Positions 10,855 to 14,326 of a DNA stretch of 64,000 nucleotides are shown here, piece after piece. The notes under the pieces are model-generated. The model saw only the letters and a program-made list of their open reading frames with translations. It ran no database searches and was not told the origin of the DNA. The position numbers and the translations under genes were made by a program. Source of the DNA: Planctomycetota bacterium (GTDB taxonomy: Bacteria > Planctomycetota > Phycisphaerae > Phycisphaerales > UBA1924); contig JAFEBP010000001.1 in assembly GCA_018242605.1 (NCBI GenBank), positions 12,118-76,117 of the forward strand, given 5' to 3'. How positions within the stretch are numbered: the first letter of the stretch is position 1; every line of letters begins with the position of its first letter.

Positions 10855-11865
10855 ATGTCGATTCTTCCCATCACCGATGCGTTCACGCGGTACTTGGCAG
10901 ACGAGCGCCATTTCAGCCCGTACACGGCCCGCTGCTACGGAGCCGACTTGCGCCAGTTCGTCGAGTTTCTCGCCAAGGACCACCGCCTGGAGGTCGACGC
11001 GGCCAAGGAGAAGGAGGCGTTCGAACGCGATCCCTCCAAGCGCTCGCCCGACATCGCCGGCACGATCGGCGCACGGACGATCACGGACCTGATCCGGTCC
11101 GCCAACCCCGAACTCATCCGCTCGTTCCTGACCCACCTGGGCACGCAGCAGTACTCCGCCGCCACCATGGCCCGGAAGATCGCGACGCTTCGTTCGTTCT
11201 TCAAGTGGGGCGAGAAGCGCGGCCACTGCGCTCTGAACCCCATGACCAGCATCCGCACGCCCCGCCAGGCCAAGCGGCTCCCCAAGGCGATCACCATCGA
11301 CCAGGTGGAGCGCCTGCTCGCCGCGCCCGGCGACGCCGACATGCTTGGCCGCCGCGATCGCGCGATGCTCGAGACTCTTTATTCCACCGGCATCCGCGTC
11401 AGCGAACTGGTGGGCCTGAACTCCGAGGACATCGATCTCGCGGGCGAATCGCTCCGCGTCCGCGGCAAGGGAAAGAAGGAACGCATCGTCCCGCTGGGCA
11501 GCCACGCGGTAGGGGCCATCAAGCGCTATATCGATCTGCTCCGCACCGATCCCAAGTTCGCCAACGGAACCCCCGCCGGCGGGCCTCTCTTCGTCAACAA
11601 GCACGGCGGCCGGCTCTCCAGTCGTTCGGTCCGCCGCAAGCTCGATAAGTACTTGAAGCAGGTTGGCCTGGATCCTTCCATCAGCCCCCACACCCTGCGG
11701 CACAGCTTCGCCACCCATCTGCTCGACAACGGCGCCGATCTCCGCACCGTCCAGGAGATGCTGGGCCACCAGAGCCTTTCGACCACGCAGGTCTACACCC
11801 ACCTGACGAGCTCCCGCATGCAGGACGCGTACAACCGCGCTCACCCGCGGGCCCAGGCGAGCTGA
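10855..11865 (+). CDS. Tyrosine recombinase XerC/XerD type
   Basis: 336 aa site-specific recombinase, most likely the chromosome-dimer resolvase acting at dif. The N-terminal SAM-like domain (AFTRYLADERHFSPYTARCYGADLRQF split across residues 8-35) carries an insertion of roughly 35 residues compared with E. coli XerC/XerD (about 300 aa). Catalytic residues are in place: Arg in STGIRVSELVGL, Lys in RGKGKKERIVPLG, HTLRHSFATHLL (HxxR), GHQSLSTTQVYTH (His/Trp-position His and Tyr nucleophile). AGGAG lies 7-11 bases before ATG 10855. A strong terminator follows. No mobile genes are adjacent, which argues for the housekeeping enzyme; XerC versus XerD cannot be told from this alone. Confidence 0.93.
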   Translation: MSILPITDAFTRYLADERHFSPYTARCYGADLRQFVEFLAKDHRLEVDAAKEKEAFERDPSKRSPDIAGTIGARTITDLIRSANPELIRSFLTHLGTQQYSAATMARKIATLRSFFKWGEKRGHCALNPMTSIRTPRQAKRLPKAITIDQVERLLAAPGDADMLGRRDRAMLETLYSTGIRVSELVGLNSEDIDLAGESLRVRGKGKKERIVPLGSHAVGAIKRYIDLLRTDPKFANGTPAGGPLFVNKHGGRLSSRSVRRKLDKYLKQVGLDPSISPHTLRHSFATHLLDNGADLRTVQEMLGHQSLSTTQVYTHLTSSRMQDAYNRAHPRAQAS

Positions 11866-12483: not shown

Positions 12484-12489
12484 TACCCT
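12484..12489 (+). promoter_or_regulatory. -10-like hexamer TACCCT before prfB
   Basis: TACCCT, then the 6-base spacer CGCCCC, then ATG 12496. There is no Shine-Dalgarno sequence. The identical hexamer precedes pheT. Confidence 0.5.
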
Positions 12490-12495
12490 CGCCCC

Positions 12496-13618
12496 ATGCA
12501 TTTCGACGCTCACCAGCCAGTCATCAACGACCTTGAGGCGCGGATTTTGACAATCCGCGACTCTCTTTAACTACCCGTCCAAAGTTCAACAAATCAAGGA
12601 CCTGGAAGCCGAGATGGGCTCCGACACCTTCTGGAACAGCCAGGAGCGTGCCCAGCGGGTCGTCAACTCCATCAAGTCGCTCAAGGCTCAGGTCGACCTG
12701 CTGACCGGGGTCATCAAGGACTTTGAGGACGCCAAGCTGGCGTACGAGATGTCCCGCGAAGCCGGCGACAAGGACCTGCTCGCCGAGGCCGATGAGCAGC
12801 TCTTCCGCCTCCAGTCCCGCATGGAGAAGGTCGAGCTCCGCTCTCTGCTCTCCGGCCCGCACGACAACAAGAACTGCTTCCTCATGATCTCCGCCGGCGT
12901 CGGCGGCACCGAGGCCAACGACTGGGCCGACATGCTCTACCGCATGTACATCTTCTACTGCGAGAAGATGGGCTTCGAGATCGAAGAGGTCGACCGCGGC
13001 TTTGGCGCAGAGGTGGGCATCGACTCCGTGACCCTGCACGTCAAAGGCCCCTTCGCCTTTGGTTACCTCAAGTGCGAGCGTGGCACCCACCGGCTCGCCC
13101 GGGTCTCGCCTTTCAACGCTCAGGGCAAGCGTCAGACCTCCTTCGCCACGGTCGAAGTCACCCCCGAGTTCGATGAGGTCGACATCACGATCCCCGAGAC
13201 CGACATCGAGGTCACGCCCTTCGTCCGCGCCTCGGGCCCAGGCGGGCAGAACGTCAACAAGGTCGCCAGCGCCATCCGCCTGGTCCACAAGCCCACCGGC
13301 ATCCAGGTGGTCGCCAGCACCTACCGCGACCAGCCCCAGAACAAGAAGCAGGCCTTGTCGGTCCTGCAGGCCAAGCTGCAGCAGATGGCCGAAGACAAGC
13401 GCGAGAAGGAAATCAGCGCCGCCCAGGGCGGAAGCCTTGAGCAGGGGTGGGGCACCCAGATCCGTTCATACGTGTTTTACGACAACCGCGTCAAGGACCA
13501 CCGCACCGGCTACGAGGAGACCGACTACGAGGCCGTTCTCCGAGGCGAGCTTGCTCCGTTCATCGATGCCGAGCTCAAACGCCGCCGCGCCGAGAAGGAA
13601 AAGACCAAGAAGTCCTGA
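12496..13618 (+). CDS. prfB: Peptide chain release factor 2 with +1 programmed frameshift
   Basis: RF2 releases finished peptides at UGA and UAA codons. The zero frame from ATG 12496 reads MHFDAHQPVINDLEARILTI..RDSL and stops at TAA (12568-12570) after 24 codons. Slipping +1 at CTT TAA C (12565-12571) continues as NYPSKVQQIKDLEAEMGSDT to 13618, giving about 373 aa, normal for RF2. The RF2-type codon-recognition motif SPF is in ARVSPFNAQGK, and GGQ is in RASGPGGQNVNK. This is the classic prfB autoregulatory frameshift, but the stop is UAA rather than the usual UGA and no AGGGGG-like stimulator is seen just upstream. DedA-like gene follows 21 bases later. Confidence 0.95.
12565..12571 (+). promoter_or_regulatory. 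prfB: prfB +1 recoding site CTTTAAC
   Basis: CTT TAA C matches the known slippery pattern CUU URA C with A in place of the usual G. The downstream +1 frame encodes all of the remaining RF2. An in-frame stop at codon 25 is at the position conserved across bacteria. Confidence 0.88.
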
Positions 13619-13639: not shown

Positions 13640-14326
13640 ATGGACGCACCGACTCCTCCCGAACTCGTCGCGCCCCGCAAGCCGGGCCTTCACCGTCGTC
13701 TCTACGACTGGACGCTGTCGCTCGCGGGCCGGCCCAACGCCACATGGGCCCTCGCGTTCATCAGCTTCTCCGAATCGATCTGGTTCCCTCTCCCGCCGGA
13801 CATCCTGCAGATCCCGCTCACGCTCGGCAAGCCCCGTCGCGCCATGTGGTATGCGCTTGTGAACTCGGCCTCCAACGTCGCGGGCGGCGTCGCCGGGTAT
13901 GCCGTGGGCTACTTCCTGCGTTCCATGGTGGCGGGGTTGTTCGGCGAGCACGCCTTCGACGCCCTCGCGCCCTACACCAGCAACCTCTGGCTGCTCACCG
14001 CCGGCGCCCTGGTGGTCCATCCGTACAAGATCTTCACCATCGGCGCCGGATTCCTGGGCGTTGACCTCTTCACGTACACACTCGCTTCGATCATCGGGCG
14101 TGCACCCCGGTTCTTCATCATCGGCGTCCTGCTCTACTACTTCGGCGAGACCGCCAAACGTCTCATCGACAAGTACTTCAATCTCCTCACCATACTGTTG
14201 GGGCTGGCCATCGTTGCGGTGATCGCCGGCATGGTGTTCTTCAAGCCCAAGCACGACGCCGGCCACGATTCCGCTCCAACCCCCGCCGCGTCGCCGACAC
14301 CTCCCCACGCGGTGGCTCCGAAGTAA
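13640..14326 (+). CDS. DedA/SNARE-associated (YqaA-like) membrane protein
   Basis: 228 aa integral membrane protein. The region WALAFISFSESIWFPLPPDI and the Pro/Gly segments PYKIFTIGAGFLG and NSASNVAGGVAGYAVGY match the VTT/DedA superfamily, YqaA branch, whose members have been linked to lipid scrambling or flipping. About five hydrophobic segments are visible, and the C-terminus is a short Pro/Ala/His tail. The gene starts 21 bases after prfB and has no strong ribosome binding site, so it is probably expressed with prfB. Substrate unknown. Confidence 0.82.
   Translation: MDAPTPPELVAPRKPGLHRRLYDWTLSLAGRPNATWALAFISFSESIWFPLPPDILQIPLTLGKPRRAMWYALVNSASNVAGGVAGYAVGYFLRSMVAGLFGEHAFDALAPYTSNLWLLTAGALVVHPYKIFTIGAGFLGVDLFTYTLASIIGRAPRFFIIGVLLYYFGETAKRLIDKYFNLLTILLGLAIVAVIAGMVFFKPKHDAGHDSAPTPAASPTPPHAVAPK

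Follow-up and report, generated by a model that had tools for sequence, protein, structure and literature searches.

The window, that is, the whole 64,000-nt stretch of DNA analyzed here, from a planctomycete of the class Phycisphaerae, carries prfB, the gene for release factor 2 (RF2), on its forward strand in two frames. The zero-frame open reading frame (12496–12570, +) starts at the ATG at 12496 and runs for 24 codons, encoding the peptide MHFDAHQPVINDLEARILTIRDSL, before it ends at a TAA; both the start and the peptide are kept in relatives. The +1 frame (12569–13618, +) reads NYPSKVQQIKDLE from 12569 onwards, provides 349 post-shift residues that include the SPF and GGQ motifs, and stops at 13616–13618. 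Between them lies the slippery stop site CTT TAA C (12565–12571, +), with CTT as codon 24 (12565–12567), TAA at 12568–12570 and C at 12571, where the P-site tRNA would slip by +1 from CUU to UUU. The locus therefore has a short zero-frame ORF ahead of an RF2-encoding +1 ORF, and a CUU followed by a stop codon that RF2 can read and then by a C. The +1-frame product scored 400 bits against the TIGR00020 prfB profile (cut-off 370). Because a TGA at 12548 closes the RF2 frame upstream, and no start codon occurs from there to the ATG at 12614, the N-terminal part of RF2 requires the frameshift. Coordinates, frames and profile score thus agree with an earlier sequence-only reading, which had proposed that RF2 needs a +1 slip at CTT TAA C after codon 24. 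The upstream neighbor of prfB (10855–11865) looks like a XerC/D-type tyrosine recombinase and the downstream neighbor (13640–14326) like a small YqaA/DedA-like membrane protein, both named from reading the sequence only.

UAA and UGA alternate at the recoding site

Relatives were sampled by protein search (30 genes) and then across the class, and 60 further loci were read. Most sampled relatives share the prfB frameshift site; with few exceptions it reads CTT TAA C or CTT TGA C, and it never contains TAG. We also noted loci in which A or G replaces the C after the stop (CTT TGA A/G in L097, L294, L296 and L298). In the set of genes selected by protein, the stop is TAA in 24 of the 28 genomes from the window's family and in 34 of the 47 from its order, with TGA in the remainder and TAG in none. 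Broken down by rank, the counts from this set were 4 TAA out of 4 for the window's genome and genus, 20 TAA and 4 TGA for the family outside the genus, 10 TAA and 9 TGA for the order outside the family, and 3 TAA, 53 TGA and no TAG for the class outside the order. The UAA that the sequence-only reading had reported is therefore also the stop of most family relatives, and the relatives' prfB genes, to which that reading had looked for a check, are far from uniformly UGA. A sequencing error is ruled out by conservation of the site in more than 190 class genes, and an assembly error by its retention across the order and class, single-contig genomes included.

Since the stop at this site has switched at least 21 times on the RF2 tree, and close relatives have a UGA site with the same upstream hairpin (see below), UAA and UGA seem to substitute for each other almost freely here. 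A 2025 survey puts UAA prfB sites at 1.4% of the 8,164 genomes that carry the frameshift and reports no broad fixation in particular clades (PMC12421855).

The genome encodes one RF2, an RF1 with the PAT motif, and RF3 (636 bits). RF1 scored 347 bits, which is under NCBI's cut-off, yet its best match is RF1; with such a gene in the genome, RF1 loss or recoding is ruled out. The suggestion that UAA might imply unusual RF1 levels found nothing in its favor, given this RF1 gene. Stop usage was estimated from the ORFs of the window and of the relatives' loci. TGA ends more ORFs than any other stop, with 26 of 42 in the window and 53 of 77 in the same-family loci, so RF2 is probably the main factor. 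These counts suggest, but do not prove, that RF2 has the larger share of the work and would remain dominant at UAA, in which case the site would still report on RF2.

The Shine-Dalgarno-like element is missing and the mRNA is probably leaderless

The textbook example of an internal Shine-Dalgarno (SD) sequence that acts on an elongating ribosome, by pairing with 16S rRNA beside the E site, comes from RF2 frameshifting. The SD is described as a highly conserved upstream stimulator of RF2 frameshifting in two accounts (PMC5009743, PMC12421855). Such sites characteristically, though not by definition, have an SD-like stimulator some 3 nt ahead of CUU. The window has none: the duplex with CCUCCUUU is predicted at +0.4 kcal/mol here versus −8.8 kcal/mol for the E. 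coli sequence. The earlier observation that no AGGGGG-like element precedes the site was thus correct, and the median for the class TAA sites is also +0.4 kcal/mol. A degenerate anti-SD is ruled out as the reason, as the relatives have an intact, canonical GGATCACCTCCTTTCT; the anti-SD was read from relatives, the window's own assembly being without a 16S gene.

The spacer ACTCT (12560–12564, +) directly precedes CTT; with CTT in the P site, its TCT is in the E site. TCT occupies this position in 174 of 193 class sites and TGG in 8; UCU is one of the known favorable, typical spacer codons (PMC13245932). At the other end of the ORF, a probable −10 promoter box, TACCCT (12484–12489, +), matches TANNNT and ends 7 nt before the ATG. 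Such a box ends 5–9 nt before the ATG in 26 of 46 order relatives and in 0–2 at other positions, and scanning with the consensus gave no complete sigma-70 promoter. Because of the recurrent placement of the box, the prfB mRNA is probably leaderless, which lends indirect support to the sequence-only reading on this point.

A covarying hairpin lies at the position of the Shine-Dalgarno element

Upstream of the spacer, at 12539–12559, we found a hairpin that the sequence-only reading had not mentioned. On the basis of the predicted fold and of pair counts, its 5' arm is CGCGGATT (12539–12546, +), the first seven positions of which are the conserved stem columns, and its 3' arm is AATCCGCG (12552–12559, +), which ends 5 nt before the slippery CTT. 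The hairpin, CGCGGAT-loop-ATCCGCG, folds at −11.8 kcal/mol, with a z-score of −4.0 against dinucleotide shuffles. Members of the order share the pattern CGCGGAT-N7-ATCCGCG-ACTCT-CTT, so that the nucleotides are kept and not the residues alone, and the rest of the class has mostly CCCGGAT-N7-ATCCGGG. All seven pairs can form in 87 of 102 class frameshift genes and at least six in 97 of 102, versus mostly one to three in 29 sites gathered outside the class. A search of Rfam returned no relevant family match at E up to 1. In a pattern scan of 84,980 species' genomes, 77 of the 80 matches examined, among the matches listed, fell in prfB; loci fetched by DNA pattern, which are biased toward intact stems, were excluded from the 87 of 102 figure and from the codon-choice comparison below (49 of 63).

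The stem and the CTCTCTTT that follows it could instead be an intrinsic terminator or attenuator early in prfB, with the frameshift proceeding without a stimulator, and a scan did flag stem and tail as terminator-like. We consider this improbable. The tail is a poor, late-starting U-tract (AC, then TCTCTTT), and eight class members that have most or all of the hairpin carry GACTGGCTTTGAC or GAGTGGCTTTGAC in its place (GACTGGCTTT-type tails). Moreover, the pyrimidines are part of the slippery cassette, and SD-type planctomycetes that have no hairpin also have TCTCTTTGAC.

The pattern at silent sites might also reflect nothing beyond protein conservation (A-R-I-x-x-x-I-R-D) and codon bias, with the slippery stop and the E-site codon sufficing for the shift. 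The residues themselves do permit complementary codons, and about 8% of synonymous versions of the window's protein would form such a stem by chance; for this reason, the case for the hairpin rests on comparison and not on one sequence. We took 63 non-redundant genes, picked by protein alone, and drew synonymous codons for the same residues: 49 genes have full seven-pair stems, where the draws predict 4.6. Covariation pointed the same way. The stem pair −28/−10 joins the silent third positions of an Ala and an Arg codon and changes between G-C and C-G with the protein unchanged. It ranks first in pairing above expectation among 6786 column pairs (−45 to +74), and again among 2346 column pairs in the protein-selected set. 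In the 63 genes, this pair is GC in 26, CG in 27, TA in two, AT in one and GU in four, and unpaired in three; pair −25/−13 is variable as well (G-C, A-U, C-G and G-U). When the whole helix was scored with the structure given, 91% of cells were paired, a level reached by none of 500 shuffles, and controls in which the partner was slid by 1–3 columns gave 15–50%. The independent silent G-C/C-G swaps number about three to five, not enough for a sign test to reach significance, and both sides change together in all or nearly all of them. Protein constraint on its own is thus very unlikely to account for the excess of full stems and for a top covariation signal that falls on two paired silent positions.

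The locus, in short, has a stable, E-site-adjacent stem that is conserved as RNA structure. With a covarying hairpin at the SD position, the view that the site has no stimulator at all is not upheld. An apparent link between UAA and the CGCG type of stem (G-C at −28/−10 in 66 of the 73 UAA sites) was unsupported after allowing for relatedness. A weak SD-like GGGA (median duplex energy −4.0) persists in the 3' arm, CCGGGAC, of many class members with UGA, and in these genes the hairpin and the GGGA may act together; the weak element is gone in the window's order (+0.4).

The hairpin accompanies the frameshift within the class

Within the Phycisphaerae, prfB has lost the frameshift several times, and the hairpin was lost in each case: the class members with a single-frame gene (L050, L051, L053, L054, L056, L057 and L104) have no such stem. 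Several single-frame, stemless class genes encode similar residues. Two class members, L092 and L099, have the shift without the hairpin, and both carry AAGGAC at the SD place. In the sister class and in other planctomycetes, we found SD-like AAGGAG, GGAG, GGGGAC or GGGAC, and the hairpin is absent, with one partial exception (L155, described at the end). A general planctomycete feature is thereby ruled out, since other classes are mostly SD-like and hairpin-free.

This distribution also bears on the idea that the inverted repeat is an intragenic DNA operator bound by a protein. The arms are palindromic and the gap between them is constant at seven bases, as an operator would have it. Nevertheless, the repeat occurs only once in the 4.98 Mb genome, its spacing to CTT is fixed across the class, it is lost together with the frameshift, and it tolerates G-U pairs in the mRNA strand, all of which makes an operator hard to credit. 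Least credible of all is RNA polymerase slippage on a short T run beside a nascent hairpin (cf. Roseiflexus IS630), yielding a frame-corrected mRNA: a nascent stem loop beside the slippage run is known for T5C5 (PMC5009743), but here the C is followed by only three T, and a conserved stop at the shift together with the C at +4 is the translational signature.

Proposed mechanism and relation to known systems

We conclude that this is probably an otherwise ordinary RF2 autoregulation in which a hairpin that refolds upstream of the site takes the place of the SD as +1 stimulator. Once the ribosome has moved past codons 15–21 and holds CUU in its P site and UAA in its A site, the 7–8 bp hairpin would refold on the exit side of the ribosome and end 5 nt before CUU. 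By jamming against, or pulling on, the mRNA exit side, the duplex would then help the E-site tRNA to leave and the Leu-tRNA to slip forward by one base, from CUU to UUU. With release factor abundant, UAA would be read as a stop and the 24-residue peptide released; with release factor scarce, the slip would win and RF2 would be made. Exit-side refolding is proposed on account of the stem's position, 5 nt before CUU, together with data on engineered hairpins (PMC6321510). In those constructs, upstream hairpins stimulated +1 and weakened −1 frameshifting, and in a 70S extract a stable hairpin upstream of CUUUGA mimicked the internal SD with about 60% of its effect (PMC6321510).

The site shares with E. 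coli-type prfB (AGGGGG UAU CUU UGA C) the gene, the CUU, a stop in the A site, the C at +4, an early position (codon 24 here versus 26), an E-site codon of the preferred class and an obligatory +1 shift. It differs in that the window has a covarying hairpin in place of the SD-like stimulator, in the UAA of most of the window's family, and in an mRNA that is probably leaderless here. The duplex lies at almost the same distance in both, the hairpin ending 5 nt before CUU and the E. coli SD 3 nt before. Like the hairpin proposed here, the synthetic hairpins placed at CUUUGA are E-site-adjacent, lie upstream of a CUU-stop and are proposed to be functional mimics of the SD duplex, but they are engineered 12 bp stems assayed in vitro, whereas the present one is natural, 7–8 bp long and conserved across a class (PMC6321510). 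The UAA prfB sites in PMC12421855 likewise read CTTTAA and can be read by RF2 and RF1; those are reported to lack broad fixation in particular clades, whereas here UAA is found in 24 of 28 genomes of one family and goes with a hairpin in place of an SD. A 5' stem loop behind the ribosome is also thought to aid forward movement in the bypassing of phage T4 gene 60, as reviewed in PMC5009743, although that is a 50-nt bypass with a nascent-peptide signal and not a one-base shift.

On the evolutionary side, an SD-like CGGGAC may have become one arm of a CCCGG/CCGGG stem; the arms could later have swapped to CGCGG/CCGCG in the window's order and some others, so that the SD likeness was lost and the stem kept. 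Overall, it seems reasonably probable that the whole class has swapped an rRNA-pairing stimulator for an mRNA hairpin, with the window's order doing without an SD and its UAA switch sensing RF2 and RF1 together. If true, an upstream hairpin would here, for the first time to our knowledge, drive a natural +1 frameshift in bacteria. A hairpin stimulator is likely, though not certain, to be new: the passages of PMC5009743 and PMC12421855 that were examined contain no mention of a hairpin as an upstream stimulator of RF2 frameshifting, and in the non-subscription literature we found no paper that describes prfB frameshifting in Phycisphaerae or other planctomycetes. According to the survey, which covers 12,753 genomes, nearly all frameshift-using bacteria share the same mechanism (PMC12421855). 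On sequence evidence, this clade goes against both that statement and the one that UAA is not broadly fixed. The clade also offers a natural experiment on the role of the SD, in that if any E-site-adjacent duplex suffices, the effect would be mechanical and not specific to pairing with rRNA. UAA and UGA variants side by side further provide a system for studying how RF1 shares control.

Two further observations concern individual records. In L155 (= L300), a planctomycete outside the class, a 5-bp CGCGC/GCGCG stem closes an 11-nt loop and has the same end point, and there is no SD-like element; this stem is a possible second origin of the hairpin stimulator, and sampling of its class gave no further hairpin case. 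Lastly, five public MAG records labelled Actinomycetota, Leptolyngbya or Singulisphaera (L218, L239, L156, L188 and L224) contain a Phycisphaerae-type prfB with the hairpin, and are probably mislabelled or mixed bins.
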